DNA from: Dokdonia pacifica
GTDB lineage: Bacteria; Bacteroidota; Bacteroidia; Flavobacteriales; Flavobacteriaceae
DNA length: 64,000 bases
Assembly: GCF_900188275.1 (NCBI RefSeq)
Contig: NZ_FZNY01000002.1
Span: forward strand, 310,001 to 374,000
Reading direction: 5' to 3'
How positions within the stretch are numbered: position 1 is the stretch's first letter; the number at the start of each line of letters is the position of its first letter. Under the pieces are notes generated by a model. It was not told the DNA's origin. It worked only from the letters and a program-made list of their open reading frames with translations, and searched no databases. Shown here one piece after another: positions 14,075 through 59,213 of the stretch. The position numbers and the translations under genes are program-made.

Positions 14075-14098
14075 TATACGCTTTCGCGAAAGCGTATA
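14075..14098. repeat. 24-bp perfect palindrome of the TTTCGCGAAA family
   Basis: Perfect palindrome with the core TTTCGCGAAA at 14082-14091, flanked by TATACGC and GCGTATA. It is one of 12 copies of this core in the window and sits just after the GSII terminator. Confidence 0.9.
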
Positions 14099-14216
14099 CA
14101 GAAGACAAAGTGGTTATTAACAAAAGTAATAGGTTAGATACCTACCTTGAAACATATAACCTAGAAACCATTTTCAAATCTAGCAAAGCGTTTATTTCGT
14201 AAAAGTAGTCTAATTG

Positions 14217-14636
14217 CTATTGCTGAGTAGAATATGCTTGCTTACTAGTTGGAATATCCCAATTTGGATATACTCGAAAAGCCCTCTTCCCGTCTTTCGT
14301 TTTTGTTGAGATGATTCCTTTTTTAATAAGTATTGATTTTGGAAAAACAAATTGCCCAAATCCAAGGTCTGAACGTACACTTACAACAAAAAAATCTATT
14401 TGATCGTCATCCATAAAAGGTTCTATTGGACCATCGTTATATCGTTTCCAAAATGTAACAAATTGACCAACCTTTTTAGGAGTAATCTTAGCGCTTCTAG
14501 ATATAACATGCTTCCCATTAAGCATAAAACGACAAGCATCATACTCCCTACTCTCTAATTCAAATGTAAAATCTGAAATATTTAAAGCACATCTATCGTA
14601 GACTTCTGTTTTTATTTGCTTTAAATTATCATCCAT
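14217..14636 (-). CDS. MepB family protein, possibly C-terminally shortened
   Basis: 139 residues. Motifs typical of MepB: GQFVTFWKRYNDGPIEPFM, DFFVVSV, GQFVFPKSILIKKGI and KRAFRVYPNWD. S. aureus mepB lies in the mepRAB multidrug efflux operon, but the biochemical role of the family is unknown, and no efflux genes are adjacent here. Oddity: the frame ends AYSTQQ-stop (TAG), yet the next in-frame codons read QLDYFYEI, which looks like the usual family ending, with the stop where a tryptophan codon (TGG) would be expected. A single G-to-A change would explain it. The protein is otherwise intact. Confidence 0.8.
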   Translation of the reverse strand: MDDNLKQIKTEVYDRCALNISDFTFELESREYDACRFMLNGKHVISRSAKITPKKVGQFVTFWKRYNDGPIEPFMDDDQIDFFVVSVRSDLGFGQFVFPKSILIKKGIISTKTKDGKRAFRVYPNWDIPTSKQAYSTQQ

Positions 14637-14696
14637 TTATTTGAAATTTACCAGATATCTTAAACATCTCAAAAAACAGTTATAAAGGCGTACATT

Positions 14697-15641
14697 TTAC
14701 AAAAATGTAAAGCCTACAAATACAATATATGCTACAAAAAGAATAAGACCTTTATACCTTGATAATTGCATTCTTTTAGGGATAAATGCAAGTGGTAAGA
14801 GAATCACTGCAAATCCTATCATCCAAAAAATATTTGTAGACAAAATAGCATCATCTACCACTGAAATAGGTTTTATAATTGAGGTAATACCTAGCACTGA
14901 TGCAATATTAAAAATGTTAGACCCAATAAGGTTTCCTAACGAGATTGCTTTTTCTTTTTTTAATGCAGCTATCACTGATGCTGCCAATTCAGGAACGCTG
15001 GTGCCTATTGCAATAACCGTTACAGAAATCACATAGTCACTAACGCCTACGGCTTTAGCGAGCTCTGTTGCCCCTTTAACCAGCCATTCTGACCCAAAAT
15101 ATAATGCGGTTCCACCAATAGCCAGCCAGATAAAAATCTTGAAGTAAGAACTTTGTGCCAACCCATCATCTACGCCATCTTCATCTACCTCCTTCTTTTT
15201 ACGAGCTCTACGTATTAAAACAAAAAGGTATATAATGAGACATGATACTAATCCTATTCCTTCTAATTGCGTAAGCTTCTCATCATTTTTTAATAAAAAA
15301 TATAGCACGATAGAAAACAATAGCATTATAGGCCAATTGAATCTATAGAAATCTCGATCGACCGCTAGAGAGGATATAATTGCTGTAATTCCTAATACCA
15401 ACCCAATATTTGCAATATTGGATCCTATTACATTACCTAATGCAATATCAGAAAGTCCATCATATGCTGCCTGTATACTCACTAAAAGTTCTGGAGCAGA
15501 TGTTGCAAAAGAAACTACAGTAAGCCCAATCACCATCTTAGAAAGGTTCAGTTTAAAAGATAACCCTACAGAAGAACGTACTAAAAACTCACCCCCTACT
15601 ACCAATAACAACAATCCAATTAGGACATAAAATATACTCAT
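14697..15641 (-). CDS. calcium/sodium antiporter (CaCA family, YrbG-like)
   Basis: 314 residues, about ten membrane helices. Two inverted-topology alpha repeats are visible: residues 38-80 (GLTVVSFATSAPELLVSI, ALGNVIGSNIANIG) and about 205-250 (VIAIGTSVPELAASV, SLGNLIGSNIFNIASVLG). The acidic glutamates in SAPE and SVPE and the NxxGSN motifs are the ion-binding residues known from Na+/Ca2+ exchangers. A cytosolic loop between the halves (RRARKKKEVDEDGVDD) is short, as in the bacterial branch. It exchanges Ca2+ for Na+ across the inner membrane. Close to the MepB gene on the same strand but with a 60-nt gap. Confidence 0.92.
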   Translation of the reverse strand: MSIFYVLIGLLLLVVGGEFLVRSSVGLSFKLNLSKMVIGLTVVSFATSAPELLVSIQAAYDGLSDIALGNVIGSNIANIGLVLGITAIISSLAVDRDFYRFNWPIMLLFSIVLYFLLKNDEKLTQLEGIGLVSCLIIYLFVLIRRARKKKEVDEDGVDDGLAQSSYFKIFIWLAIGGTALYFGSEWLVKGATELAKAVGVSDYVISVTVIAIGTSVPELAASVIAALKKEKAISLGNLIGSNIFNIASVLGITSIIKPISVVDDAILSTNIFWMIGFAVILLPLAFIPKRMQLSRYKGLILFVAYIVFVGFTFL

Positions 15642-15791
15642 ATATATGAACTTTGCGACGAAGATAATAAATAGTAATCGTCACACACATATCAAAAATT
15701 AATGTTTTCATCAGTTTGTGTATGACATTGTTAATAAGGGAATACTTTTTGCTTTGTCTATTACATATAAAGCAGTACATTAGTTATTGAT

Positions 15792-18002
15792 ATGGAACTG
15801 ACCCAAGAGTACATAGAAGCAGAAAACAAAGAGCTAACACGCCAGTATAAAAAACTACTGCGCATCAGTTATCAAACGCTTACTGCCGAAGATAAAAAAA
15901 TGATCCGGAAGGCTTTTAACATCGCTGTAGATGCGCATAAAGATCAACGTCGTAAATCTGGAGAGGCTTATATTTTTCATCCACTTGCTGTAGCACAAAT
16001 TGTAGCCAGTGAGATAGGGTTAGACGCTACTTCTATAGCATCTGCATTACTACACGATGTTGTAGAAGATACAGAATATACACTTGTAGATATTGAACAG
16101 CTTTTTGGAGAGACCGTTGCTCGTATTGTAGATGGACTTACCAAAATTTCTAATTTGAAAAAGGATAGAGATGTTTCTCTACAAGCTGAGAATTTTAGAA
16201 AAATGCTATTGACTATTAATGACGACCCACGTGTTATTATTATTAAAATAGCAGATCGTTTACATAATATGCAAACGATGGATGCCATGCGACCTGACAA
16301 ACAGGCAAAAATTTCCAGTGAGACGTTATACATATACGCACCTCTTGCTCATAGAATGGGACTTTATAATATCAAAACAGAGCTTGAAGATTTAAGTCTT
16401 AAATATACAGAACCAGAGGTCTATAAGGATATTAAAGACAAAATCAAAGAGAGTAAAGAAGAGCAAGATAAATACATCCGAGACTTTAAAAAGGTTATTG
16501 AAGACTCTCTTAATTTAGAAGGATTAAACTACGAGATCAAAGGTCGTCCCAAATCTATTTATAGTATACGACGTAAAATACTCAATCAAGGTATTAATTT
16601 TGATGAAATTTATGACAAGTTTGCGATTCGTATTATTTACAAAAGCGATGTTGCAAATGAGAAATTTTTGGCATGGAAAATATACTCTATTGTTACAGAT
16701 CATTTTAGACCCAACCCTACTCGCTTAAGAGATTGGATATCTTCTCCAAAATCTACAGGATATGAAGCACTTCATATTACGGTTATGGGACTTAAAGGAA
16801 GATGGGTAGAGGTTCAGATTCGTTCTGAACGTATGAATGAAATTGCAGAAAAAGGATATGCTGCTCATTTTAAGTACAAGCAAGGTGACGATGGAGATAA
16901 AGGTCTTGATGAATGGATTAATAGACTTCAAGAAGCATTAGAAAATCCAGATACTAATGCAGTAGATTTTGTAGAAAACTTTAAACTCAACTTATACAAT
17001 AAAGAAATCTTTGTATTTACACCGCAAGGGGATCTTAAATCATTGCCTAAAGGAGCTACTCCACTAGACTTTGCATTTAGTGTACATACAGAAGTAGGAT
17101 TACATACCAGAGGAGCGCGAGTAAATGGAAAGTTAGTTCCATTAAGTCAAGAACTTAAAAGTGGGGATCAAGTAGAGATTATTACATCAGAACAAGCAAA
17201 ACCAACAAATAACTGGCTGGATTATGCTACCACAGCTAGAGCAAGAGCTAAAATTAAATCATCTTTAAAAGACGAGAAAAAAGAAACCGCAGAAGATGGC
17301 AAAGTAATTCTTTCGCGAAAGCTAAAATCTCAAAAAATTCAGCTTAACGAAAAAACAATCAATGAACTCGTATCATATTTTAAATTAAACACAAGTTTAG
17401 ATCTTTTTTATAGGGTAGGCATAGGTACCATTGATAATAAAATGATCAAAGAATTTGCTACGCAACGTAGTAATGCTTTTGTAAGTTTCTTTAAAAATAA
17501 AATACGGAAACCTAATACCGTTGAAAATGTAGATCGTGATGAAATTACAAACAAATATGACGATCTTGTATTTGGTCCGGATGAACAAAAATTAGATTAT
17601 AAGTTTTCAAATTGTTGTAGCCCTATACCTGGAGATCCTGTATTTGGTTTTACAACGATCAATGAAGGCATTAAAGTGCATAAAAATAATTGTCCAAATG
17701 CTATTTCTTTACGAAGCAAATATGCCTACAGGGTAATTCCCGCAAAATGGATAGATTCTAGTGCACAAGGACATAAAGTTGATATTAAGCTTACTGGAAT
17801 TGATAATTTAGGACTCGTAAACGAAGTCACAAAAGAAATTTCAGATCATATGCACGTAAATATTAAGAGTATCAGTTTTACAACAAATGGAGGTATTTTT
17901 AATGGAAATATTACTGTAATTGTTCAAAACAAAGAGCATCTTAAAAAGTTAATGGATAATCTTAAAAAAATCAATGGAATTGACAAAGTCACTCGATTAT
18001 AA
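15792..18002 (+). CDS. rel: bifunctional (p)ppGpp synthetase/hydrolase (RelA/SpoT family)
   Basis: 736 residues in the standard order: HD hydrolase domain (about 30-180, with HPLAVAQIV and ALLHDVVEDTEYT), synthetase domain (about 230-350, GRPKSIYSIRRKI, YDKFAIRIIYKS, STGYEALHITVMG, EVQIRSERMNEIAEKGYAAH), TGS domain (about 395-455, IFVFTPQGDLKSLPKGATPLDFAFS), a zinc-finger-like/helical part with CCSPIPGDPVFGF, and a C-terminal ACT domain (about 660-736). HD and synthetase motifs both look intact, so it should make and degrade the alarmone. It begins a plus-strand run rel-fur-purA, with fur 29 nt downstream. An in-frame TTTCGCGAAA palindrome lies inside the gene at 17311-17320. Confidence 0.96.
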   Translation: MELTQEYIEAENKELTRQYKKLLRISYQTLTAEDKKMIRKAFNIAVDAHKDQRRKSGEAYIFHPLAVAQIVASEIGLDATSIASALLHDVVEDTEYTLVDIEQLFGETVARIVDGLTKISNLKKDRDVSLQAENFRKMLLTINDDPRVIIIKIADRLHNMQTMDAMRPDKQAKISSETLYIYAPLAHRMGLYNIKTELEDLSLKYTEPEVYKDIKDKIKESKEEQDKYIRDFKKVIEDSLNLEGLNYEIKGRPKSIYSIRRKILNQGINFDEIYDKFAIRIIYKSDVANEKFLAWKIYSIVTDHFRPNPTRLRDWISSPKSTGYEALHITVMGLKGRWVEVQIRSERMNEIAEKGYAAHFKYKQGDDGDKGLDEWINRLQEALENPDTNAVDFVENFKLNLYNKEIFVFTPQGDLKSLPKGATPLDFAFSVHTEVGLHTRGARVNGKLVPLSQELKSGDQVEIITSEQAKPTNNWLDYATTARARAKIKSSLKDEKKETAEDGKVILSRKLKSQKIQLNEKTINELVSYFKLNTSLDLFYRVGIGTIDNKMIKEFATQRSNAFVSFFKNKIRKPNTVENVDRDEITNKYDDLVFGPDEQKLDYKFSNCCSPIPGDPVFGFTTINEGIKVHKNNCPNAISLRSKYAYRVIPAKWIDSSAQGHKVDIKLTGIDNLGLVNEVTKEISDHMHVNIKSISFTTNGGIFNGNITVIVQNKEHLKKLMDNLKKINGIDKVTRL

Positions 18003-18031
18003 TTCCGTAACTTTACATCTTTAATAGCACT

Positions 18032-19822: not shown

Positions 19823-19901
19823 AATAAATATATAACTCGCTTTTGAGACTTTGTTAACTACCTTTTGAGATCACATTAACGCTTTCAGAAGTCAATTTGT
19901 T

Positions 19902-19909
19902 TATTTTTG
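19902..19909 (+). promoter_or_regulatory. -7 promoter box just before the LptA-like gene
   Basis: TATTTTTG, a match to TAnnTTTG, only 5 nt before the ATG at 19915. The expected transcription start would fall at or next to the ATG, giving an mRNA with almost no leader. It also argues against the in-frame TTG at 19897 as start. Confidence 0.5.
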
Positions 19910-19914
19910 CTACA

Positions 19915-21744
19915 ATGCATATCAAAAAATACATACTTATACTGATTTTTGCTGTTTTTGCTTTCGCGAAAGCGCATACTCAAGAAGAACGTAAAGAAAT
20001 ACACATCAAATCTGATGTGACAGAAAAGAATGAAATAGAATATCCTGGTGCTGTAATTTTATATAAGAGAAAAAAACAAGTATATATATCACATGAAGGT
20101 ATTGAAATGTGGTGTGATATTGCTTTTCATTACAAAGAAGAAAACTTTGTAAAAGCTTTAGGAAATGTAAAAATGAAACAGGGAGATTCTGTTTCTATGC
20201 GCAGTAAATATGCAGAATACAGTGGAGATACAAAATTTGCATTTGCAGCTGGAAAAGTATGGTTAAAAAAAGATACAACAGTCGTTACTACAGATACCAT
20301 GTACTTTGATCGTAATAAACAGCAATCTTATTATCGTACAGGAGGTGTAGTTACCTCGCCTAATAGTAAAATCACAAGTCGTATAGGACGTTATTATCTT
20401 GAAGAAGACAAAATATCATTTATCAGTAATGTTGAAGTAACCAATCCTGAATATGTGATCAATAGTGAGCAATTAGATTTTTATAGCGAAACAGAACACG
20501 CCTATCTATATGGTCCTACCACAATCACAAGTGAAACTTCAAAAGTATATTGTGAACGAGGATTTTATGATACTAAAAACGATTATGGATATTTTGTGAA
20601 AAAATCACGAATAGACTATGATAATCGGCAAGTTTATGGAGATAGTCTTTATTTTGATAGAACTCGAAATTACGCTAGTGCTACTAATAATATAAGAGTA
20701 AAAGACACCCTAAACAAAAGTCTCATTAAAGGTCATTATGCTGAAGTTTACAGAGATAAAGACTCTGTATTTATTACACAAAGAGCTGTTGCCATTACAG
20801 AGCAAGAAGGCGACTCTATCTATGTACATGGGGATAAACTTATTGTGACAGGAAAACCTGAAAACAGAATTGTGAGAGGGTATTATAATGTACGTATGTT
20901 TAAAAGTGATATGAGTGGTAAATGCGACTCTATTCATATTAATCAAAAAACAGGGCTTACACAAATGATACGCAGGCCCATCTTATGGAATGAAGCCAAT
21001 CAAATAACAGGAGACAGTATTCACCTTATTAATGATGTGGTGACTGAGAAACTAGATTCTCTAAAAGTGTTTGACAATGCTTTTATTATTCAAAAAGACT
21101 CTATAGACGGATATAATCAGGTAAAAGGACAAAAACTCTACGGTTTCTTTAATAAAGAAAATCAATTAGATTCTGTAAACATTATTAATAATGCAGAGAG
21201 TATTGTCTATATGCGTGAAGAAAATGGAGAACTACAAGGTATTGACAAAAGCAAATCTGCCTCTATTACGATCTTATTTGTAGATAAAGCAATAGACGAA
21301 GTTATAAAATACAAAAACCCAGGTGGTAACATATGGCCAGAATCACAGTTTTTAAAGCAACAGCAAACCTTTGAAAATTTTGAATGGCGTGGTGATGAAC
21401 GTCTTTTAAGTAAAGAAGATATTTTTAAAGGTGAACCGCCATTTACGTTAACAAAAATACAAGGAATCCCATTACCTATCATAGATAGCGACTTCTTTGA
21501 AGAGTCTGAAGATGGAGAACTTGAAACACCAAGCGCTTCCAATTTATCGGAAAAGGAATTGTCTAACAGAGCCGAAGACAAACCCAAAATAGGAACCGAG
21601 GAGGAAGACGAAATAACAAAGCGACAACGGGAGTATTTGATTAATCGAAACAAAGCAACTTCTTCTGAAGGAGATAGTACTCCTAAAGTTTTAGATCCTA
21701 AAAAGAAAAAGAAAAAAGGAGATGGATCACCAAATCGTTTATGA
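19915..21744 (+). CDS. OstA/LptA-like lipopolysaccharide transport protein
   Basis: 609 residues from the ATG at 19915, beginning with a signal peptide (MHIKKYILILIFAVFAFAKA, cut near AHTQ). Residues about 30-420 are rich in the OstA/LptA beta-jellyroll pattern (DSVSMRSKYAEYSGDTKFAFAAGKVWL, YYRTGGVVTSPNSKI and repeats), the fold that carries LPS across the periplasm. The C-terminus is charged and low complexity, ending in lysines (DPKKKKKKGDG). It is much longer than E. coli LptA, as usual in Bacteroidota. The palindrome TTTCGCGAAA at 19962-19971 encodes AFAKA in the signal peptide. Its stop overlaps the ATG of the next gene (ATGA), implying coupled translation. Confidence 0.85.
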   Translation: MHIKKYILILIFAVFAFAKAHTQEERKEIHIKSDVTEKNEIEYPGAVILYKRKKQVYISHEGIEMWCDIAFHYKEENFVKALGNVKMKQGDSVSMRSKYAEYSGDTKFAFAAGKVWLKKDTTVVTTDTMYFDRNKQQSYYRTGGVVTSPNSKITSRIGRYYLEEDKISFISNVEVTNPEYVINSEQLDFYSETEHAYLYGPTTITSETSKVYCERGFYDTKNDYGYFVKKSRIDYDNRQVYGDSLYFDRTRNYASATNNIRVKDTLNKSLIKGHYAEVYRDKDSVFITQRAVAITEQEGDSIYVHGDKLIVTGKPENRIVRGYYNVRMFKSDMSGKCDSIHINQKTGLTQMIRRPILWNEANQITGDSIHLINDVVTEKLDSLKVFDNAFIIQKDSIDGYNQVKGQKLYGFFNKENQLDSVNIINNAESIVYMREENGELQGIDKSKSASITILFVDKAIDEVIKYKNPGGNIWPESQFLKQQQTFENFEWRGDERLLSKEDIFKGEPPFTLTKIQGIPLPIIDSDFFEESEDGELETPSASNLSEKELSNRAEDKPKIGTEEEDEITKRQREYLINRNKATSSEGDSTPKVLDPKKKKKKGDGSPNRL

Positions 21745-22938: not shown

Positions 22939-23018
22939 CGCTTTCGCGAAAGCGAACTTACTAGACCTACCTGCCGGCAGGCAGGTTCACTACCATAGGG
23001 AGAGCGAAGCGATAAAGT
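22939..23018. repeat. composite dispersed repeat, copy A
   Basis: Starts with the palindrome CGCTTTCGCGAAAGCG (22939-22954), continues CGAACTTACTAGA, then carries a second palindrome CCTGCCGGCAGG (22970-22981) with a CAGG repeat, then TTCACTACCATAGGGAGAGC and AAGCGATAAAG. Copy B at 30382-30441 has the same order without the CCTGCCGGCAGG insert. The two copies show a defined repeat family with an inserted smaller palindromic unit. Confidence 0.75.
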
Positions 23019-27925: not shown

Positions 27926-27945
27926 TACGCTTTCGCGAAAGCGTA
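27926..27945. repeat. 20-bp perfect palindrome of the TTTCGCGAAA family
   Basis: TACGCTTTCGCGAAAGCGTA, perfect palindrome in the spacer between the metalloprotease start and the propeller lipoprotein stop, i.e. within a probable minus-strand leader. Confidence 0.9.
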
Positions 27946-30381: not shown

Positions 30382-30441
30382 CGCTTTCGCGAAATCGAAC
30401 TTGTGAGATTCACGACCATAGGGAGAGCAAAGCGATAAAGC
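30382..30441. repeat. composite dispersed repeat, copy B
   Basis: Begins ACGCTTTCGCGAAATCG (one change from the perfect palindrome), continues CGAACTTGTGAGATTCAC and GACCATAGGGAGAGC, and ends AAAGCGATAAAGCGTA. Its ends TACGCTTT and AAAGCGTA are inverted repeats of each other. Copy A (22939-23018) matches over the whole length apart from one 20-nt insert. It lies between prfB and the HAD gene. Confidence 0.75.
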
Positions 30442-31071: not shown

Positions 31072-31095
31072 ATAATAACCAATTAATTTTTAGCA

Positions 31096-31133
31096 CGCTT
31101 TTCCTGTCTATTGACAGGCAGGCACGAAAGCAA
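31096..31133. repeat. palindrome with a nested CCTGTC/GACAGG insert
   Basis: CGCTTT is separated from CGAAAGC by TCCTGTCTATTGACAGGCA and further CAGG-like bases. The arms match the TTTCGCGAAA palindrome and the insert is itself an inverted repeat related to the CCTGCCGGCAGG unit of copy A at 22970. It ends 7 nt before the ATG of the ArsC-like gene. Confidence 0.65.
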
Positions 31134-36040: not shown

Positions 36041-37735
36041 GTGAAAACGTTTAAAAAAATACCTGCAATTATCCCCGCTCTCATCGTATTGATAGCGATT
36101 AACTTTGTGGCGACGCAATTCCATAAACGTTATGATCTTACACAAGACAAAAGATACACGCTTAGTGACCCTGCAAAAGCTATTATAGCCCAAGTGAAGA
36201 GTCCGCTTATTATAGATGTATTTTTAGAAGGAGAACTTCAACCTGAATTTAGAAAACTTCAAAATGAAACGCGTTATTTATTAGAGGAAATTTCAAATTA
36301 TAATCCAAACGTATCTTTTGCCATTTCGAATCCTGTAGAAGATAATACAGATGCAAATGTCGTTGCACAGCAGTTTGCGAGTTTTGGGATGACTCCGCTC
36401 CCACTTACTGTAAAACGTAATGGAGAAGAAACTACACAAACGCTTTTCCCATGGGCGACGGCAAATCATAATGGAAAAGCAATCCCCATCTCTCTTATTA
36501 AAAATATTGCTGGAGCTTCTCGAGAACAATTTGTATATGCATCTATTCAAAATCTAGAGTATGCCTTTATAGATGGTTTTAATAGGTTACTAAATGCTAA
36601 ATCGAAGCGTATTGCAGTATTAAAAGATAACGGAGAGCTTCCTGATGCTAAGATTGCAGATATGTTTCGTAAACTAGGAGAAACCTATAGTATCGCTCCG
36701 TTTCCTATGAGTACGGTATCTAAAAATCCTGAAAGAGCTTTACGCGCATTACAAAATACTTTTGATCTTGTCGTAGTAGCAAAACCCACCAAAGCATTTA
36801 CAGACGAGCAAAAGTTTGTATTAGATCAATACATTCTTAATGGAGGGAATTCGTTATGGCTTATTGATGCTGTAGCAATGGAAAATGACAGCTTACGAAA
36901 TCCAGATGGAAAAGCATTGGCCTTTCCTAGAAACTTGAATTTAAATGATCAGTTTTTCAAATACGGCATCCGAATTAACCCCGTGTTAGTTAAAGACTTA
37001 TACTCCGCACCTTTAAGTCTTGCTTCAGGTGATGGTAGCCAATCAAAGTACCAACAACTTCCTTGGTTTTACCAACCGGTTACCCCTTCTTTTAACACAC
37101 ACCCTATCAATACCAATATAGAACGTCCAGTACGATTTAATTATGCAAATCAGATAGAATTACTTAACAATACTGCTGCCATAGAAAAGACCGTTTTATT
37201 AACCTCTAGTATTCTTACTAAGATTGAAGGAACTCCTAAAGAGATTTCTTTAGATGAAATTTCTATTGAGCCAAATGAACAGGATTATCAATCAGGCACA
37301 CAACCACTAGCTGTACTATTGGAAGGTAAATTTGAGTCTGCTTTCAAAAACCGTATTCAACCTGTTACCTTAGACAGTATACGCTTTCGCGAAAGCGCAA
37401 CAAAAGCTTCCAAAATGGTTGTGATTGCAGATGGAGATCTTATTGCAAACGAAGTAGACAGCAAAGGAAATCCATTAGAATTAGGATTTGATTATTTTAC
37501 ACGAAAACAATATGGAAATAAAGAGTTTTTGCTAAATACAGTCAATTATCTTCTTGATGATAATGGTCTTATTAACATACGTAGCAAAGAGATTGCCCTT
37601 CCATTTCTAGACACTCCAAAAGTTGTGAACAGCATTAACAAGTGGCAAGCCTTAACTATAGGGCTTCCGTTGGCGTTACTTTTAATTTTTGGTGCTTTAT
37701 TTTTTACACTTCGCAAACGCAAATACGCAAGGTAG
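36041..37735 (+). CDS. gldG: gliding motility protein GldG
   Basis: 564 residues: N-terminal helix (IPAIIPALIVLIAINFVATQF), a large periplasmic domain with YDLTQDKRYTLSDPAKAIIAQVK and the ABC-type transport-associated fold (up to about 530), and a C-terminal membrane helix (LTIGLPLALLLIFGALFF). It partners GldF in the gliding ABC transporter. The start is GTG at 36041, inside a degenerate copy of the CACTTTCGTGAAAACG palindrome. A perfect palindrome copy also lies in frame at 37382-37397 (encoding IRFRESA). Spacing of 9 nt to gldF indicates an operon. Confidence 0.93.
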   Translation: MKTFKKIPAIIPALIVLIAINFVATQFHKRYDLTQDKRYTLSDPAKAIIAQVKSPLIIDVFLEGELQPEFRKLQNETRYLLEEISNYNPNVSFAISNPVEDNTDANVVAQQFASFGMTPLPLTVKRNGEETTQTLFPWATANHNGKAIPISLIKNIAGASREQFVYASIQNLEYAFIDGFNRLLNAKSKRIAVLKDNGELPDAKIADMFRKLGETYSIAPFPMSTVSKNPERALRALQNTFDLVVVAKPTKAFTDEQKFVLDQYILNGGNSLWLIDAVAMENDSLRNPDGKALAFPRNLNLNDQFFKYGIRINPVLVKDLYSAPLSLASGDGSQSKYQQLPWFYQPVTPSFNTHPINTNIERPVRFNYANQIELLNNTAAIEKTVLLTSSILTKIEGTPKEISLDEISIEPNEQDYQSGTQPLAVLLEGKFESAFKNRIQPVTLDSIRFRESATKASKMVVIADGDLIANEVDSKGNPLELGFDYFTRKQYGNKEFLLNTVNYLLDDNGLINIRSKEIALPFLDTPKVVNSINKWQALTIGLPLALLLIFGALFFTLRKRKYAR

Positions 37736-40493: not shown

Positions 40494-40506
40494 CGCTTTC
40501 GCGAAA
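40494..40506. repeat. partial copy of the TTTCGCGAAA palindrome
   Basis: CGCTTTCGCGAAA with the right arm lost after AAA (ATAA follows in place of GCG). Core TTTCGCGAAA at 40497-40506. Confidence 0.75.
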
Positions 40507-42517: not shown

Positions 42518-43978
42518 CTACTCCCCCATTTTCTTAATAAATCCATCCAGAAACAACAAGCGTTTTTCTGTCCAAGTTTGCATATATTCCAATCCTTCTT
42601 GATCATAGGCAAATGTGGACCATCGTTGCTCTTCGCGCTCATAGAGTAAATTATCTTTAAGCGATGCATAGATTTCTGATTGCCTTTGTTGTAATGCCTT
42701 GGTTTCAAAAATGCCTTTTCTAAGTTCGATCCAGCGATTTTGGAAACGCTGTATAAAGTTATCTGGATTTACAGCAATCAAACGCCTTAGAAGTCCATTA
42801 GTTAAGAAATCATCTGTAGTAGCTATTCGTTTTCCACTATAGATGGTACCGAAAGTTCCATCAAGATCCCAAGGAACATAGAAATACGGTTCATCTTCTT
42901 TATAACGTGCTACATAAATATTCTTTCCCATATTATCAGGTGCACGTAAGGCATTGATGAATAAAAAATAGTCAATCACATTCTCCATTTGGAATCGTGA
43001 GGAGATTTCTTTCGCGAAAGCGGTATCATCACTATGCAATACAAAATCGGTAAATGCATAGAGGTTATCCCATGGTGTATTAGTTGGAACGGGGTATTTA
43101 ATGTCATAACCTCCCCAAGACAGCAGATAATTCTTTTTTTGAGGTATGGAGTCAAAAGACGAGGCGCCTAAATAACGAGCCCCTTGAAAAAGCTCTCCGC
43201 GTGTGGTATCTCCTTTTTGTTTTTTAAGCTTCAATAGTTTGCGGTCTACCTGTTCGCTTACTAGATACACCCCTTTATACCGATCATTGATAAATACCTC
43301 ACAATAACGGGTGGTAACTCCTGCTTTGGCTTTAGGTTCTTCTTGAAGATAATAAGGCCTGTATATCTCTGTCCATAACTGATAAGACAGATGTGATCGC
43401 ATTCTAAGCGGTTCGTTATGAATCGCATCTAGAATCCAATCATCATCACTACGCATCCTATCTATTTTGAGATCTTGATTAGACACCCCATCTGCCGAAG
43501 GATGTAAATTAATATCATACGTTTTTTTAGGAAATATCAACGAACTACTACCGCGTAACTCAATACCTGCATAGGTTTGTAGGATAGTATCTTTATCAGT
43601 ATATGTAAGTGTTGCCATGCGTTTTGGCTCATTGATAATAGGTTTGTCAATGTAAAACTGAAACAACGGATGCTTTGCCACATATACGGCATACGCTTTT
43701 CCTCCTGCATCCGTAAGTCGGTATACATCTGATGTCGTTGCTTCCCCTTTGAACAACTCAAGTGTGTAGGGCTTATTTTTATAGGCAATCGTCACAGTAC
43801 CACGCATATCTTTGAGTAGACTAGCATGTATCACCGCTATTGATAACGAATCATCAATAGCCATGGTTGGCATCTCAGATTGTGCATAGCTTGTTCTTAC
43901 CGAAAACATACAACAAAGCAGCACAAAGCAACACAGCTTACAACTATTTGATATAATACGCTTTACACTATAGAGCAT
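42518..43978 (-). CDS. CotH-like kinase family protein, secreted
   Basis: 486 residues from an ATG at 43978, chosen because a signal-like hydrophobic stretch (LCCFVLLCCMFSVRTSYAQ) follows; a longer start at 44062 would put it too far inside. CotH motifs: GIELRGSSSLIFPKKTYDINL, LDAIHNEPLRMRSHLSY, GVYLVSEQVDRKLLKL and the metal-binding YVPWDLDGTFG. Homologues include spore-coat protein kinases and secreted proteins of many bacteria, so kinase activity is possible but unproven. The TTTCGCGAAA palindrome lies in frame at 43010-43019, encoding AFAKE. Downstream gene overlaps are absent. Confidence 0.88.
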   Translation of the reverse strand: MLYSVKRIISNSCKLCCFVLLCCMFSVRTSYAQSEMPTMAIDDSLSIAVIHASLLKDMRGTVTIAYKNKPYTLELFKGEATTSDVYRLTDAGGKAYAVYVAKHPLFQFYIDKPIINEPKRMATLTYTDKDTILQTYAGIELRGSSSLIFPKKTYDINLHPSADGVSNQDLKIDRMRSDDDWILDAIHNEPLRMRSHLSYQLWTEIYRPYYLQEEPKAKAGVTTRYCEVFINDRYKGVYLVSEQVDRKLLKLKKQKGDTTRGELFQGARYLGASSFDSIPQKKNYLLSWGGYDIKYPVPTNTPWDNLYAFTDFVLHSDDTAFAKEISSRFQMENVIDYFLFINALRAPDNMGKNIYVARYKEDEPYFYVPWDLDGTFGTIYSGKRIATTDDFLTNGLLRRLIAVNPDNFIQRFQNRWIELRKGIFETKALQQRQSEIYASLKDNLLYEREEQRWSTFAYDQEGLEYMQTWTEKRLLFLDGFIKKMGE

Positions 43979-44127
43979 GCAGAAAATAAGATTGGTTAGG
44001 TGCGCAAGATATAGTATTGTTTTTTTAGCAACAAACAATGACATATATGAGATAGCTATCATAATTTAAACACAATCCTTAAAAAACCTTTCTATTTTTA
44101 TATTTTCGCTTTTTATAAACACGTTTT

Positions 44128-45225
44128 ATGCTCAAAAGAGTACTTCCCCTGTTGTTGATCATAGGCAGCAGTATTTGTATACAAGCTCAAGAATCTACCA
44201 ACAAACCATTTGATGTAGATGTACAGTACTTTTATGGCAATCTCATTGAGCATAGTAAAGACATAGCACATCTTATTACTGAGCATCCTAAAGGGCTTCT
44301 TCTAAGCTATAATCGCAAAACCTATGGCTTGAACGAATGGGAACGTAGATATAACTATCCAGATTGGGGGTTTTCATTTATGTATCAGGATTTTGGAAAT
44401 GAATTTGTCGGAAAGAACTATAGTCTTTTTGGTCATTATTCCTTTTATTTTTTAAACAGAAAGCTCCAATTCAGAATAGGACAAGGAATTGCTTATAATA
44501 CCAATCCGTTTGATATTGATACGAATAAAAAGAACAATGCTTTTGGCACACATCTTTTAAGCGCCACCTACCTCCTACTCAATTACAAGCAACAACTCAC
44601 CAACCAGATTCATGTACAGGGTGGTCTTACACTCACCCATTATTCAAATGGAAATGCACGAGCCCCAAATACTAGCCTTAATACTATTGCTGCAAATATA
44701 GGATTGACATACGTACCAAAAGATCAAGGAATACCGCCATACATCGCTTTAGAGAATAAGAAATATACTGAGCCTATTCGATATAATTTTGTATTACGAG
44801 GTGGTGCCAATGAGAGTGATAGATTGGGGCTTGGACAACATCCGTTCTTTATTGCCTCTGCTTTTGTGGATAAACGTATTTCCTACAAAAGCACGCTACA
44901 AGCTGGTATAGATGTATTTTTTGCGCGTTTTTTAAAAGAACAAATCGAATTTGAGGCCGTTGCTTTTCCGCAATTTGGCACACAAGGAGATGAAGATTGG
45001 CGACGTGTTGGGCTTTTTATAGGACACGAACTCCGTTTTGGTCGTGTTGCATTTGTGAGTCAATTAGGATACTATGTATACTATCCATATGATTTTGAAG
45101 GGCGTATTTATGAACGCATAGGATTGAAACGTTATTTTGGGGATCACTTCTTTGGAGCAGTTACCGTAAAAGCACACGGCTCTAAAGCAGAAGCTGTAGA
45201 ATTTGGAATAGGATATCGATTATGA
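44128..45225 (+). CDS. PagL-like lipid A deacylase / acyloxyacyl hydrolase, outer membrane
   Basis: 365 residues with signal peptide (CIQAQ) and a beta-barrel composition. LTLTHYSNGNARAPNTSLNTIAANIGLTY matches the PagL catalytic region, with His171 and Ser173 corresponding to the catalytic pair of PagL. This family removes an acyl chain from lipid A or acts on related acyl esters. The protein is longer than PagL (about 170 residues), with an extended N-terminal half. Its stop overlaps the start of a DUF2807 lipoprotein (ATGA), so the two are translated together. Confidence 0.82.
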   Translation: MLKRVLPLLLIIGSSICIQAQESTNKPFDVDVQYFYGNLIEHSKDIAHLITEHPKGLLLSYNRKTYGLNEWERRYNYPDWGFSFMYQDFGNEFVGKNYSLFGHYSFYFLNRKLQFRIGQGIAYNTNPFDIDTNKKNNAFGTHLLSATYLLLNYKQQLTNQIHVQGGLTLTHYSNGNARAPNTSLNTIAANIGLTYVPKDQGIPPYIALENKKYTEPIRYNFVLRGGANESDRLGLGQHPFFIASAFVDKRISYKSTLQAGIDVFFARFLKEQIEFEAVAFPQFGTQGDEDWRRVGLFIGHELRFGRVAFVSQLGYYVYYPYDFEGRIYERIGLKRYFGDHFFGAVTVKAHGSKAEAVEFGIGYRL

Positions 45226-46028
45226 ACTATATTATAAACTTACATAGATGGATGTTGGGTACGCTTTCGCGAAAGCGTATAACCCTATTTTCACTACTTA
45301 TAGCAACACTTTTCTATAGTTGTGACTCTGAAGATGCTACCGATTGCTTACAAACAGATGGTGACGCTATAACGCGCACCTTAGAATTACCATTTTTTGA
45401 TAAAGTGCGTACAGAAAATGATATGCGTCTTGAGATTACGCAAGGAGATACGCAAAGCATCACGGTAGAAACCAGAGAAAACCTATTTAATGATCTTGTT
45501 TTTAAAGTAGAAGATGACACCTTTATTATGCAAAATAAGAATGGATGTCCCATATTTAGAAACTTTGGACGGACACTTGTACGTATTACAGTGCCCAACC
45601 TGACCTTTATAAAAAACAGCGCCACCTATGAGATCACAAGTAATGGAACACTCTCTTTTCCTAGAGTACTTCTAGAAAGTGTGACCACACCAGGGATAGA
45701 TAGTCCAAATAAAACAGGGGATTTCTTTTTAGATTTTGAATCAGAAAGAATCACAGTTGTTGCCAATGGAATGAGCGATTTTCACCTCTCAGGAACTACT
45801 GATATTTTAAATGTTAACTTCTCTGACGAATTCCCAAAATTATATGGAGAAGATCTTATAGCGCAAGATGTAATAGTGAGACACGTGGGAGCTGCCCCTA
45901 TGATTGTAAATCCTCAAGCAAGTATCACTGGAGAAATCAGAGCTACTGGAGATGTTATTTCAAGAAATGAACCTCCTATCGTTGATGTACTAGAGCTATT
46001 TACTGGAAGATTATTATTTGAAGAGTGA
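45222..46028 (+). CDS. DUF2807 (head GIN domain) lipoprotein
   Basis: 268 residues. Residues 1-35 carry a lipoprotein signal with the lipobox around LFYSCDS. The mature part is a right-handed beta-helix-like repeat: FDKVRTENDMRLEITQGD, VRITVPNLTFIKNSATYEIT, FHLSGTTDILNV, typical of DUF2807 putative adhesins. The N-terminus contains the palindrome TACGCTTTCGCGAAAGCGTA (45260-45279) in frame, encoding TLSRKRI just before the membrane segment, so the palindrome may have extended the signal region. It overlaps the PagL-like gene by 4 nt. Confidence 0.85.
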   Translation: MNYIINLHRWMLGTLSRKRITLFSLLIATLFYSCDSEDATDCLQTDGDAITRTLELPFFDKVRTENDMRLEITQGDTQSITVETRENLFNDLVFKVEDDTFIMQNKNGCPIFRNFGRTLVRITVPNLTFIKNSATYEITSNGTLSFPRVLLESVTTPGIDSPNKTGDFFLDFESERITVVANGMSDFHLSGTTDILNVNFSDEFPKLYGEDLIAQDVIVRHVGAAPMIVNPQASITGEIRATGDVISRNEPPIVDVLELFTGRLLFEE

Positions 46029-53278: not shown

Positions 53279-53294
53279 CGCTTTCGCGAAAGCG
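53279..53294. repeat. 16-bp palindrome CGCTTTCGCGAAAGCG
   Basis: Perfect palindrome 53 nt upstream of the DUF2141 gene, with core TTTCGCGAAA at 53282-53291. Confidence 0.9.
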
Positions 53295-54858: not shown

Positions 54859-54883
54859 ATAGAACTACGTATATATAACAACT

Positions 54884-55283: not shown

Positions 55284-56084
55284 CTAAAAACGATTATCAC
55301 CATCTAATAAATCTCCTAATCCTCCTAATATAGAACCTTCACCTCTAGACTTGCCTCCTCCTGAAGGAGCCAATGCAAGTACTCTATTTGCTAATCTACT
55401 AAACGGTAATGATTGAATATATACAGTTCCTGGACCTGATAAGGTTGCAAAAAACAGCCCTTCTCCTCCAAAAATGGTGTTTTTTATCCCACCAACAAAT
55501 TCAATATCATAGGTTACGGAGTGATCAAAACCTATAATACATCCTGTATCAACTTTTAGTTTTTCTCCTGGAGCAAGTTCTTTCTTTAATGTCGTACCTC
55601 CTGCATGTACGAATGCTACACCGTCTCCTTCTAATTTTTGCATAATAAATCCTTCTCCGCCAAAAAGCCCTCTTCCTAGTTTTCTTGAAAATTCAATTCC
55701 GACAGAAACTCCTTTGGCAGCACATAAGAAAGCATCTTTTTGACATACAAACTTTCCTCCTATAGCTGCTAGATCTATAGGGATTATTTTACCTGGATAT
55801 GGAGATGCAAAGCTTACTTTTTTCTTTCCTACTACATCATTATAGAATGCCGTCATAAAAAGACTTTCTCCTGTAAGTAATCGTTTACCTGCTCCAAATA
55901 TTCTTCCCATTACGGAGTTATCTTTTTGTGAGCCATCTCCAAAAATTGTATCCATCCGAATACCATCTTCCATCATCATAAAACTTCCTGCTTCTGCAAT
56001 AACGCCTTCCTGAGGATCTAATTCTATCTCTACATATTGCATTTCTTCTCCTATAATCTCGTAATCTATTTCGTGTGCTTTCAT
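55284..56084 (-). CDS. AIM24 / TIGR00266 family protein
   Basis: 266 residues with the beta-helix-like TIGR00266/AIM24 fold: [73 protein letters not shown] and [22 protein letters not shown]. Glycine-rich C-terminus ([22 protein letters not shown]). Cytosolic; homologue of yeast Aim24 and bacterial proteins of unknown role. Long AT-rich spacer upstream. Confidence 0.92.
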
Positions 56085-56409
56085 TGTATTTGTATAAATA
56101 ATAAATAGTATATCAATAAGTAAATAATCCAGCTGTTTTGTTACATCATTATTCTAAATAAATAAAAAATTGTTTCCAATCCTTAAATCACATCTAAAAA
56201 CTTGTTTAACAATTGTTTAAAATCAAAAAATAACTTTTTTCTCCAAAAACAAATACCAAAAAACAAAAAACACAACACATAAATAGCTATAAAACATACA
56301 CTTACTTGAAAAATTTATCTATAAATTTAAACTTATCTATAACGATCTATTCTTTTAAACGTCTGAAATAAAAAAAGATACCCTTAAACATAGGACGCTT
56401 TATTTTGAT
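56085..56409. other. AT-rich spacer between divergent genes
   Basis: 325 nt between AIM24-like (minus) and YqgE (plus). Mostly A/T runs with CAATTGTTTAA / TTGTTTAACAATTG-like imperfect repeats near 56205-56225. Promoters for both genes are expected here, but no clear TAnnTTTG with TTG was found. Confidence 0.4.
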
Positions 56410-57015
56410 ATGGAGAAAAAAATGACTAGGTTTATTTATCTAATTAAAAGTGCCATGAAACTACCTCCAAATAAAGGGTATTTATTAATCGCCGAACCAT
56501 CTATCATAGGTGATGTGTCTTTTAATAGATCTGTTGTTTTACTTGCCGATCATAATGATCAAGGTACCGTAGGATTTATAATGAATAAACCACTCGAACA
56601 AAAGCTTAAAGATTTTATTCCTTTTCTTACACGCAGTGACTTACCCATTTTTAATGGAGGCCCTGTAGAACAAGACAACATTTATTTTATACATACCATT
56701 CCTAATCTTATTAAAGGAAGTACAGAGATTGCATCTGGAATTTTTTGGGGTGGCGATTTTGACGCGGTCATCCAACTCATAGAAGAAGATAAAATTAAAA
56801 CTGATGAAATTCAGTTTTTCCTAGGGTATTCTGGATGGGATGCACAACAACTCAACAAAGAGTTACAAGAAAAGTCTTGGGTCGTAGTTGAAAATAATTA
56901 CAAGGAAGACATATTGACTAAATGTGGTCAAAAACTTTGGAGAGAAAAGATTATTGAATTGGGTGGAGATTACCTTATTTGGTCTAATGCTCCTGAACAT
57001 CCTCATTACAACTAA
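56410..57015 (+). CDS. yqgE: YqgE/AlgH family protein (UPF0301)
   Basis: 201 residues as drawn. LPPNKGYLLIAEPSIIGDVSFNRSVVLLADHNDQGTVGFIMNKPL is the family signature, followed by FNGGPVEQDNIYFIH and SGWDAQQLNKELQEKSW. Most homologues begin close to LxPxKGxLLIAEPSI, so the true start could be the ATG at 56455 (MKLPPNKGYLL), leaving 186 residues. Cytosolic. Its stop overlaps the stop of the convergent aminotransferase gene by a few bases. Confidence 0.92.
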   Translation: MEKKMTRFIYLIKSAMKLPPNKGYLLIAEPSIIGDVSFNRSVVLLADHNDQGTVGFIMNKPLEQKLKDFIPFLTRSDLPIFNGGPVEQDNIYFIHTIPNLIKGSTEIASGIFWGGDFDAVIQLIEEDKIKTDEIQFFLGYSGWDAQQLNKELQEKSWVVVENNYKEDILTKCGQKLWREKIIELGGDYLIWSNAPEHPHYN

Positions 57016-57857
57016 CCTAATCTCGCTTTTACATTCAATTTTTGCAACAAAGCACTTGCTACAGTAGTAGTATAGGTTTTCTTTCTATACTTTGTGATAG
57101 GACGAATTCCCTTAATCACATTTGTAATAAATAACTCATCTGCCTTCTGTAATTCAAAAGGTGAAATAGAGGCTTCTTCAAATGTATACTCGTTCATTAA
57201 AGGGAGTATTGCAAGTAATTGTTTTCGAATAATTCCTCGTAAACAACCATCATCCAATGGAGGTGTTTTAATATGCGTTCCTTTTACTAAGAATATGTTA
57301 CCTTGTAGCGCTTCTACTACGTTCTTCTTATTGTTAATTAACAAGCAATTATCATATCCATTATCTTCTGCAAAAATACTGCCTGTCACATGAAGTACCT
57401 TATTGGTTGTTTTTAACGTCGATAAAATATCTGCGTTTACATAATGGTCTTTATATAACTCTACTTCATATGGAGTGTCTGATAACACATAAAAAGGGTT
57501 AGAAATCTCTTTTGCTTGTATAAAATACCCCACTCCTCTATCTTCAGGTAAATAAGCACCACCTTCATTACGATAGACTGTAATACGTATACGAGCTGGC
57601 TTATCAGACAAATCACTTGCTTTTAACGTATCAATTAACTGCTCTTCTAAAAGTTCTGGAGTAAATTCCATTGGTATTTCCATACGTAAAATACGCATAG
57701 AAGCCATTAATCTAAAGTAGTGATCTTCCCAAAATAGTAATTTAGAATTTACTGCTTTTATGGTTTCAAAAACACCATCCCCATACAATAGTCCTCTATT
57801 CATAGGACTAAGGGTTGCTTCGTTGCTTTGCACTAAGGTACCGTTATCATTAATCAT
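57012..57857 (-). CDS. class IV PLP aminotransferase (aminodeoxychorismate lyase / branched-chain type)
   Basis: 281 residues, fold type IV. RGLLYGDGVFETIKAVNSKLLFWEDHYFRL is the N-terminal motif, LKTTNKVLHV carries the PLP-binding lysine, and LQGNIFLVKGTHIKTPPLDDGCLRGIIR the conserved phosphate-contact loop. Which of pabC, D-amino acid or branched-chain specificity applies cannot be decided; no pab genes are adjacent. The ATG is immediately preceded by the T tract of a terminator hairpin (57864-57887). Convergent with yqgE, with overlapping stop codons. Confidence 0.88.
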   Translation of the reverse strand: MINDNGTLVQSNEATLSPMNRGLLYGDGVFETIKAVNSKLLFWEDHYFRLMASMRILRMEIPMEFTPELLEEQLIDTLKASDLSDKPARIRITVYRNEGGAYLPEDRGVGYFIQAKEISNPFYVLSDTPYEVELYKDHYVNADILSTLKTTNKVLHVTGSIFAEDNGYDNCLLINNKKNVVEALQGNIFLVKGTHIKTPPLDDGCLRGIIRKQLLAILPLMNEYTFEEASISPFELQKADELFITNVIKGIRPITKYRKKTYTTTVASALLQKLNVKARLG

Positions 57858-57863
57858 AAAAAA

Positions 57864-57887
57864 TCCCGCCCTCTTTTAAGAGCGGGA
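57864..57887 (-). terminator. terminator hairpin directly before the class IV aminotransferase start
   Basis: On the minus strand TCCCGCTCTT-loop-AAGAGGGCGGGA then a T run ending at the ATG of 57857. It ends transcription of the START-like gene upstream; the aminotransferase must have its own start or be read through. Confidence 0.75.
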
Positions 57888-57911
57888 CAAATATACTATT
57901 TAGCATAGGAT

Positions 57912-58304
57912 TTAAACAGATCCTATAACGTGTTTTAATTCTGAAATTTGATTATCCCAAAACATTTTTCCTTCATCTACTTCATCCTCTTCAGCATAAT
58001 CAGTAATAATTAGGGATACATCTTTTGTAATCTCATCTACTTGAATACGAAGTTCAAAATAGTAATCTTCCCCATCTTCCTCATCTTCTAACCATCTAAA
58101 TCGGATACGCTCATTACTTTTCTTAGTAATTAACTTTGCCTGTTCTTCAGATCCATCCCATATGAAAGTATATAATTCACCTCGGGAATTTACATTGTCG
58201 GCAAACCACTCACTCATTCCAGAAGGTGTTGCCATATATTGGTATAATAGATTAGGTGACGCTCGAATCACAAACTCCATTTCATATTTTATTTTATCGC
58301 TCAT
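57912..58304 (-). CDS. START-like / AHSA1-type domain protein
   Basis: 130 residues from the ATG at 58304 (an upstream in-frame TTG at 58328 is unlikely). MSDKIKYEMEFVIRASPNLLYQYMATPSGMSEWFADNVNSRG and FIWDGSEEQAKLITKKSNERIRFRW fit the START-like domain family PF19569 found throughout Bacteroidota. The fold makes a ligand-binding cup; ligand unknown. Cytosolic. Followed by the terminator at 57864. Confidence 0.9.
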   Translation of the reverse strand: MSDKIKYEMEFVIRASPNLLYQYMATPSGMSEWFADNVNSRGELYTFIWDGSEEQAKLITKKSNERIRFRWLEDEEDGEDYYFELRIQVDEITKDVSLIITDYAEEDEVDEGKMFWDNQISELKHVIGSV

Positions 58305-58388
58305 AGGTCTGTTGTTAGTATAGCCCAATATATTGAAAGAAATCGCGAGAACAAAAAAATAGTTTTGATTTTATTTTAAAATATGTGT

Positions 58389-58418
58389 TTGTAGTAAGAT
58401 GAATTGTTTTTATATTTG
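58389..58418 (+). promoter_or_regulatory. promoter of tRNA-Met
   Basis: TTG at 58389-58391, 19-nt spacer, TATATTTG at 58411-58418. Good match; start expected near 58424. Confidence 0.7.
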
Positions 58419-58467
58419 CACCCGCTTACGGGATAGTATCTATTACGTATCTAGAAAAGCAAATAAT

Positions 58468-58541
58468 GGCGAGGTAGCTCAGTTGGTTAGAGCGTCGGAT
58501 TCATAACCCGGAGGTCACGAGTTCAATTCTCGTTCTCGCTA
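58468..58541 (+). tRNA. tRNA-Met (CAT, elongator type)
   Basis: Acceptor GGCGAGG pairs with TCTCGCT (two G-U), D-arm GCTCAGTTGGTTAGAGC, anticodon loop TTCATAA, T-arm ACGAG-TTCAATT-CTCGT. Anticodon CAT with a G-starting acceptor pair fits elongator methionine; a lysidine-modified Ile tRNA is not excluded. One A-C mismatch closes the anticodon stem. Confidence 0.9.
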
Positions 58542-58551
58542 CTTAAAAATG

Positions 58552-58584
58552 AAGAGGTTACGTTTTTAGCGTAACCTCTTTTTT
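58552..58584 (+). terminator. terminator after tRNA-Met
   Basis: AAGAGGTTACG (58552-58562), 7-nt loop, CGTAACCTCTT (58570-58580), then T tract. Confidence 0.9.
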
Positions 58585-59213
58585 ATTTTAGGTACATATG
58601 TACAACACTTTCATTATACTTTTAAGTTTACTAAATAAATAGATTCATTTATGAATCGTATTGAAATAATAAACCATTATGTAAAAAATATCCATTTCTT
58701 TCACTTACTTACTATTATGATCTAGTGTATTTCAGTAGAAAAGCTTTTCATAAAGTTTTTTTACATTTCGAATATTAACTAACCATCGGTTACTCCTAAC
58801 ATTAATCTGTATACTATTCTCAATAGCATTAACTTATGAACAATTCTTAATTAGATGTATTTATATACGCTTTCGCGAAAGCGTATATATTAATTTTTGC
58901 TTTTTTAATTTATATATTTTCCAATAACGATTGCTAATTCAACTTTATAAAATTTCAGTAAATCAGTATTATGAATAAATTTATTTACTGAAATTTTAAG
59001 ATGATTTAACTTCTTTTACTATTTTTTGAAGGTTAAGTTCATAAATCAAAATAGATAGAGCTTATATAAAACCTCACTCTTATATTGAAATCTGCTAGAA
59101 TAAACTCAAGGCACAACTTCTTATTATCAAATAATTAAATTAATTTTAACAGATAAATAATTACACGACAAATAAGATAAAATGAAGACTTCTTGTATAT
59201 ATCAAAATAGTCA
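58585..59213. other. AT-rich intergenic region
   Basis: 629 nt with no convincing gene. It contains the long palindrome at 58862-58889 and an inverted repeat AAATTTCAGTAAAT...ATTTACTGAAATTTT (about 58949-58997) that could end transcription of the cassette from the right. The region marks the boundary between core genes and the accessory cassette. Confidence 0.45.
58862..58889. repeat. 28-bp perfect palindrome of the TTTCGCGAAA family
   Basis: The longest copy: core TTTCGCGAAA at 58871-58880 with arms TATATACGC on either side, all 14 pairs perfect. It lies in the spacer before the accessory cassette. Confidence 0.92.

Follow-up and report, generated by a model that had tools for sequence, protein, structure and literature searches.

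The DNA uptake sequences (DUS) of the Neisseriaceae and the uptake signal sequences (USS) of the Pasteurellaceae have been described as evenly spaced and in excess outside genes, with 35–65% of their copies in open reading frames (ORFs), in the sections of the two sources drawn on here (PMC1939737; PMC7811141). One of these sections gives a count of 1471 copies for Haemophilus influenzae (PMC1939737). In this study, we analyzed a highly repeated element of Dokdonia pacifica in a 64-kb stretch of its 5.52-Mb genome (G000:C19:310001–374000; hereafter, the window), where the 10-bp palindrome TTTCGCGAAA occurs 12 times. The palindrome is evenly spread over the genome, conserved between species, and shared with phages, and these traits suggest a mark of "self" on the DNA. 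Tentatively, and with less than even confidence, we favor the reading that it is a genome-wide uptake-like self-recognition signal, palindromic in form but acting like the uptake sequences known from Haemophilus and Neisseria.

The 12 core coordinates given in an earlier note on this DNA were all exact, and 100 dinucleotide shuffles contained a mean of 0.08 copies and a maximum of 1. The whole genome contained 1195 copies, compared with 15 copies of the same palindrome reversed, which served as the control, and 5.8 copies expected from base composition. The earlier note had allowed for a chance cluster in this stretch; with 1195 copies genome-wide, the window is a typical sample and no such cluster. 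A sample of 464 kb that included the window contained 99 copies, or one per 4.7 kb. Long perfect palindromes do surround the cores, as the note had described, but their range was 10–28 bp and not 16–28 bp (Table 1). Its statement that copies lie both inside and between genes agreed with a crude ORF call (5 of 12 genic and 7 of 12 intergenic), and its view that they are not the operator of one regulon was borne out by sites between genes of every orientation and within genes in all three frames. No description of the palindrome was found in the literature searched with motif strings of 10–12 bases and judged by the titles listed; the sole match to the motif 12-mers was, by its title, a study of Salmonella fimbriae.

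The consensus of the 99 copies with their flanks was TATACGCTTTCGCGAAAGCGTATA. On each side of the core, the flank letters were G (0.88), C (0.94), G (0.78), T (0.58), and A (0.83), followed by A/T-rich sequence; the GC adjoining the core was thus present on each side in 88–94% of copies, and the outer letters were graded. Similar flanks were found in the related genomes G014, G013, and G016, and also in Nonlabens loci, partly by construction, as these loci had been fetched with a flank-bearing pattern. Under an order-3 Markov model of the 464 kb, intact copies numbered 99 against 0.7 expected, copies with one mismatch 26 against 12, and copies with two mismatches 168 against 211. Relative to base composition, the same profile was +201 for no mismatch, +0.66 for one mismatch, and -0.24 for two mismatches. 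The corresponding values derived from Table 1 of PMC1939737 are +183, +2.0, and +0.22 for H. influenzae and +392, +4.8, and +0.65 for Neisseria gonorrhoeae. The centre was equally strict: 99 of 128 occurrences of TTTCNNGAAA had a GC centre, as did all 72 of those that were GC-flanked, and 99 of the 113 occurrences of TCGCGA belonged to the motif. The specificity of the core is therefore near all-or-none.

The abundance of the palindrome was restricted to a narrow clade. All 18 genomes available for the genus contained 481–1195 copies. In a survey of 397 genomes of the family, six were rich in the motif, namely, two members of the genus (1195 and 1107 copies), three of the genus labeled g26 (595, 700, and 648), and one of g206 (559), and the remaining 391 had at most 34 copies each. 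In a survey of 345 genomes of the phylum, all except the D. pacifica genome had at most 29 copies. When named genomes were scanned with the 20-mer TACGCTTTCGCGAAAGCGTA, at least 98 stretches matched; among the matches listed were Dokdonia, Nonlabens, and Flavobacteria bacterium BBFL7, together with one Muricauda and one metagenome-assembled genome of the Flavobacteriaceae. Judging from an alignment between the g206 genome G222 and a Nonlabens locus (71% over 1.06 kb), g26 or g206 is likely Nonlabens. Two loci of a contig of the related genome G015 aligned to the window at 80–85%. In motif-poor genera, no comparable palindrome was found in the DNA searched, which amounted to 40 kb for each of nine genera and 20 kb for each of two further genomes. 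The commonest odd words of these genera resembled ordinary repeats or had no explanation; among them, CTTCGGAAG and GCTTCGGAA were 38–43 times above the base-composition prediction in 40 kb of two motif-poor genera, G272 (L226, L227) and G133 (L228, L229).

Individual sites were compared between species in the fetched stretches of G014, G013, and G015. For G014, which was 84.8% identical over 140 kb, 24 sites could be aligned and 23 of them were intact, including 13 of 13 genic and 10 of 11 intergenic sites; among the rest of the 99, two sites lay in flanked gaps that lacked a copy, and for 73 the stretches fetched offered nothing aligned. The chance that a 10-mer stays intact at this identity is approximately 0.19, so that 23 of 24 corresponds to a p of approximately 7e-16 if the sites are independent. 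For G013 (75%), the intact share was 7 of 12 among aligned and 2 of 4 among flanked sites; for G015 (81%), it was 4 of 6 and 0 of 1, respectively. In the reverse direction, the aligned sites were intact in 23 of 26 cases for G014, 7 of 12 for G013, and 4 of 5 for G015. Third codon positions inside the core were identical at 46 of 46 positions in G014, 26 of 31 in G013, and 10 of 10 in G015, compared with 65.5, 53, and 57.5%, respectively, outside the core. Third codon positions in the core are frozen, and the DNA word is kept beyond the needs of the protein. Where a genic copy was absent from a relative, the difference consisted of point changes (e.g., copy 17311 in G015). These alignments indicate that the sites are under selection, site by site.

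Placement was analyzed with genes called crudely as the longest ORFs starting at ATG, which cover about 88.5% of the 464-kb sample. Of the 99 copies, 43 were genic, a share that falls between the 35% and 65% cited above, and 56 were intergenic within 52 kb, where the density was about tenfold higher. Between convergent genes, where the density peaked, 13 copies fell in 7.2 kb; the numbers were 11 in 12.0 kb between divergent and 32 in 32.8 kb between co-directional genes. The genic copies were divided over the three frames as 10, 15, and 18 and encoded FRE(S), LSR(K), or FAK; 6 of the 43 lay in the first 20 codons.

The copies were also evenly spaced. The coefficient of variation (CV) of the gaps in the D. 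pacifica sample was 0.59 (97 gaps), compared with 1.02 for random placement that kept the split between genes and intergenic regions (0 of 5000 as low) and 0.93 for a null of one copy per intergenic region (0 of 3000 as low). Only seven gaps were shorter than 1.5 kb, against 28.8 or 23.8 expected under the two nulls. The spacing was less regular elsewhere, with a CV of 0.85 in G014 (73 gaps) and, in G016, of 0.83 over the 99 gaps of the initial third of a megabase (p 0.03 relative to an exponential). On the closed chromosome of G016, all 25 sampled 20-kb stretches contained the motif, with 1–10 copies each. The stretch with a single copy in 20 kb had a strongly negative GC skew and was mostly occupied by one ORF of 4951 aa (G016:C1:305125–319980; L175 5125–19980), and it is motif-poor because of this ORF. 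Close motif pairs were considered as a sign of autoregulation and rejected: the two pairs in D. pacifica (201 and 180 bp apart) had unrelated downstream genes and were judged a coincidence. The product downstream of one of them presumably resembles a BlaI-type repressor. A pair 201 bp apart in G016 lay inside a 525-codon open frame.

The palindrome was also present in phages. A 16-mer of the motif matched 41 stretches of viral contigs, of which 29 loci in 28 records were taken; having a copy was a condition of the choice and some records are near-identical, so that the density should be read as an upper view. These records contained 83 copies in 753 kb, compared with 2 of the reversed control. 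Two to eight copies each were found in 21 of the 28 records (76 in 478 kb), and one each in the other seven. Comparison of the viral stretches with the available host DNA gave no nucleotide match longer than 150 bp. Two groups of motif-bearing phages had head, portal, terminase, and tail genes. The first is related to Winogradskyella phage Peternella_1 (terminase 55–58% and transposases 47–57% identical), and the second, a tailed group, has a tape-measure protein 54% identical to that of Flavobacterium phage FPSV-S1 over approximately one quarter of its length; neither Peternella_1 nor FPSV-S1 holds a motif copy. Between phages less than 85% identical, 32 of 46 site comparisons were intact, many at 64–70% identity, and at 85–97% identity, 28 of 32 were intact; these comparisons count both directions and overlapping records and are non-independent. 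Across seven motif phages, the gap CV was 0.50 (31 gaps). Five of the seven phages fetched were examined for genes of temperate life (G760 and G774 were left out). Integrases were found in G773 and G759 and Mu-like transposases in G757, G768, and G775, and these five therefore look temperate. The motif phages presumably live in Dokdonia/Nonlabens-like bacteria.

Two named Nonlabens phages with the recorded host Persicivirga sp. IMCC12024 were compared. No motif copy was found in P12024L (whole) or in P12024S (35.0 of 35.7 kb), and both have their own Erf and YqaJ genes. In P12024L (L240 16409–18674), genes for a 2OG oxygenase-domain protein, a beta-glucosyl-HMC glucosyltransferase, and a methyltransferase stand in a row, and this gene row suggests hypermodified DNA. 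The matching stretch of P12024S has other genes listed.

Some copies of the palindrome carry inserts. In 14 of the 99 copies, a repeat of at least 45 bp lay exactly between the core and the right flank, including copies 22942 and 30385 of the window. This nested repeat was longer when its loop held a CCTGCC/GGCAGG palindrome and was sometimes in tandem. For the nested repeat at C19:441000, an exact empty site was found in G014, where the motif is complete. In addition, CCTG...CAGG palindromes were found at the very centre of copies, namely, in the G014 ortholog of copy 30385 and in the window at 31093–31131. The nested 45-bp repeat has the look of a mobile element with the motif as its insertion site. 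The inserts use the motif as a target and are not its source. All copies of the window are listed in Table 1.

Table 1. Copies of the palindrome and associated inserts in the window; orthologous places were sought in the fetched stretches of G014, G015, and G013.
Feature	Position	Strand	Perfect palindrome (bp)	Context	Relatives
Core	14082..14091	.	24	between convergent genes	intact in G014, G015, G013, though flanks differ
Core	17311..17320	.	12	in RelA/SpoT gene (15792-18002 +), read LSRK	G014 intact; G015 1 mismatch; G013 several
Core	19962..19971	.	14	near start of OstA/LptD-like gene (19897-21744 +), N-terminal AFAKA	intact in G014, G015, G013
Core with nested insert	22942..22951	.	20	between convergent genes	G014 motif without insert; G015, G013 without motif
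Nested repeat adjoining core	22952..23016	+		CCTGCC/GGCAGG palindrome inside	
Core	27931..27940	.	20	between co-directional genes	G014, G015 intact; G013 1 mismatch
Core, right flank displaced by nested repeat	30385..30394	.	10	between co-directional genes	G014 ortholog with palindromic central insert
45-bp nested repeat	30395..30439	+		between core and GCGTA flank	
Broken 13th copy	31093..31131	.		CCTG...CAGG palindrome (31103-31122) at centre	G014, G015 orthologs intact, without insert
Core	37385..37394	.	16	in ABC_transp_aux gene (36041-37735 +), read RFRES	intact in G014, G015, G013
Core	40497..40506	.	10	between co-directional genes	no convincing ortholog
Core	43010..43019	.	12	in CotH-family gene (42518-44062 -), read AFAK	G014 intact; no ortholog in G015, G013 stretches
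Core	45265..45274	.	20	near start of DUF2807 gene (45222-46028 +), read LSRK	intact in G014, G013
Core	53282..53291	.	16	between divergent genes	intact in G014, G013
Core	58871..58880	.	28 (longest)	between co-directional genes	no convincing ortholog

Among the candidates named in the earlier note, the evidence points to the class of an uptake or nucleoid-organizing site. In the uptake-like reading, a receptor of the Dokdonia/Nonlabens group would bind GCTTTCGCGAAAGC in both orientations, and kin DNA with GCTTTCGCGAAAGC would be preferentially taken up and then recombined. Such biased uptake would raise the number of motifs and would hold about one copy per uptake-sized stretch, prophages included. 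The analysis itself shows the abundance, the limits to one clade, the conservation of single sites, the even spacing, the sharp specificity, and the occurrence in phage records; DNA uptake as the cause, the receptor, competence itself, and the phage hosts are what we infer in this reading. It is favored because the H. influenzae phages HP1 and HP2 carry the uptake sequence of their host in a similar way: each contained 17 copies of the uptake 9-mer AAGTGCGGT in 31–32 kb (reversed control, 3), which is two thirds of the host density of one per 1.25 kb in a genome of 1.83 Mb, and the gap CV in HP1 was 0.51, against 0.50 in the seven motif phages. These counts and the spacing indicate that a host with uptake sequences can have motif-rich, evenly spaced temperate phages. 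The copy number, the clade pattern, the even spacing, and the mismatch profile of the palindrome also speak for this reading. Natural competence with a preference for its own DNA is described for a flavobacterium, Riemerella columbina, in the part of PMC7965970 drawn on here.

Several points weigh against the uptake-like reading. The common words of R. columbina are A/T-rich in that part of the source, unlike this motif (PMC7965970), and the known uptake sequences are not palindromes (PMC1939737). As those sequences are asymmetric and this one is an exact palindrome, it is claimed to work like an uptake sequence, not to be one. Among the papers listed in a literature search, none was seen on competence in either Dokdonia or Nonlabens, and competence genes were not searched for. 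Forms with two mismatches showed no enrichment, unlike those of DUS and USS, and the density of one copy per 3–6.5 kb is lower than that of uptake sequences. HP1 and HP2 kept 14 of 16 aligned uptake words against approximately 10 by identity alone, which is modest support, and SuMu, a phage of H. parasuis, contained none of AAGTGCGGT and six of the other Pasteurellaceae uptake 9-mer. The conservation among phages 64–70% identical exceeds anything demonstrated here for an uptake sequence. Finally, stretches that did not align between species contained 5 copies in 34.2 kb, compared with 26 in 129.8 kb of aligned stretches (Fisher p 0.66), where unaligned may mean merely unfetched; this is unlike an island of H. 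influenzae described as USS-poor in the section used of PMC7811141.

A close rival is an intracellular chromosome-maintenance site, which we consider possible. Here, a homodimeric double-strand DNA-binding protein would need a site every few kb on resident DNA, either as a nucleoid organizer or as a marker that resembles Chi but works in both directions and is read by a processive enzyme of repair or translocation. The perfect two-fold symmetry with an invariant GC centre would fit such a protein, as would the near all-or-none specificity, the distance-limited spacing, and the lack of an empty stretch among the 25 sampled on the closed G016 chromosome. The temperate look of the examined phages, the deep conservation of sites in phages, and the absence of copies from the two Nonlabens phages that encode their own Erf and YqaJ recombination proteins point in the same direction. 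However, the uptake sequences in Haemophilus phages give a similar phage pattern, and a reader protein was not found in searches for ParB and RecC. ParB of about 300 aa was present in 32 of 32 genomes, and three motif-poor and two motif-rich genomes had an additional, longer one. As a ParB/Noc reader, it was rejected on gene content and parS: canonical parS is kept in 16 of 16 motif-rich genomes (31 of 32 overall), and no paralog tracks the motif. The ParB_N score of the main ParB was 108.9–113.6 bits in 15 genomes of g1 and g26, 113.7–120.5 bits in 16 motif-poor genomes, and 115.4 bits in G222 (g206). RecC was found in 0 of 32 genomes, and AddAB was not searched for. It is rather doubtful that the palindrome is a mark of "resident DNA," in which a dimeric protein would need a site every few kb on persisting DNA, whether chromosome or prophage, for its organization or for sparing it from a processive nuclease or translocase. 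If true, this would represent an undescribed kind of Chi-like or nucleoid-marking system.

The remaining explanations agree with fewer of the observations. A palindrome that is highly iterated, GC-centred, and both genic and intergenic recalls cyanobacterial HIP1 (GCGATCGC), which was proposed to arise and persist as a side effect of DNA methylation and mismatch repair, and the model of Elhai, as set out in the part of PMC4390886 drawn on here, predicts distance-limited density. Such an origin is nevertheless unlikely here, given that one-off forms are few (26 against 99 intact), whereas they are common in many cyanobacteria, and that no methyltransferase was common to the motif-rich genomes among three Pfam families searched in 16 of the 22 motif-rich and in 16 motif-poor genomes; other families were not searched. 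In the motif-rich genomes, PF00145 was absent from 9 of 16, PF01555 was over the cut-off in only 2 of 16, and PF02086 was absent from 6 of 16. None of the three was over the cut-off in G006, G009, and G273, yet these hold 1012, 1074, and 700 copies, respectively. The methylase target suggested in the earlier note thus found no backing. The tenfold intergenic density, highest between convergent genes, could befit a transcriptional or RNA element, such as a terminator, a processing hairpin, or an operator. Copies between divergent genes and in three frames of genes with frozen synonymous positions make this very improbable, and neither even spacing nor sharing with phages would be expected. An intrinsic terminator was rejected by placement, as the sites are not confined to the downstream side of genes. 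A mobile palindromic element, of the repetitive extragenic palindrome (REP) type or like a miniature inverted-repeat transposable element (MITE), had also been proposed in the earlier note, and the 14 copies with a nested repeat, the exact empty site, and the CCTGCC-type palindromes centred in some copies might be read in its favor. However, the inserts sit in the motif and are not the motif, orthologous genic sites differ by point changes, two-mismatch copies are not enriched, the spacing is over-regular, and copies are orthologous across species and phages. The mobile-element reading is contradicted by these findings and is scarcely credible.

If the uptake-like signal is real, Bacteroidota would have a palindromic dialect of their own, remote from those of the two proteobacterial families, and its receptor and competence would become testable in culturable marine bacteria; in the literature looked at, we met no description of DUS in Bacteroidota. 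If the palindrome is an intracellular mark, it would point to an unknown chromosome-maintenance protein. Under either reading, phage genomes that bear the motif could be assigned to Dokdonia/Nonlabens-like hosts, and an evenly spaced, genome-wide motif under site-by-site selection is open to experiment in an amenable clade.

Compared with known systems, the palindrome resembles the ParB parS/Noc sites in its TTTC...GAAA arms around a GC-rich centre, and it differs from them in its two-base spacer and its spread over the whole chromosome, with parS itself kept separately. Its density is similar to that of Escherichia coli Chi, given as one per 5 kb in the portion of PMC8022716 drawn on here. 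An exact palindrome cannot be strand-polarised, so that, unlike Chi, it has no leading-strand polarity, and RecC is absent from all 32 genomes. A preference for core over accessory DNA, as Chi has, did not emerge from the aligned and unaligned stretches (Fisher p 0.66), although unaligned DNA need not be accessory. It shares with HIP1 (GCGATCGC) the form of a highly iterated palindrome inside and between genes, and departs from it in the few near-misses, the strong intergenic preference, and the lack of a shared methyltransferase in the three families. From DUS and USS, it is set apart by its palindromic form, its lower density, and the missing two-mismatch excess. With these uptake sequences, it has in common approximately 1000 copies, graded flanks, a sharp fall in number at one mismatch, even spacing, an intergenic excess, clade specificity, and presence in temperate phages.

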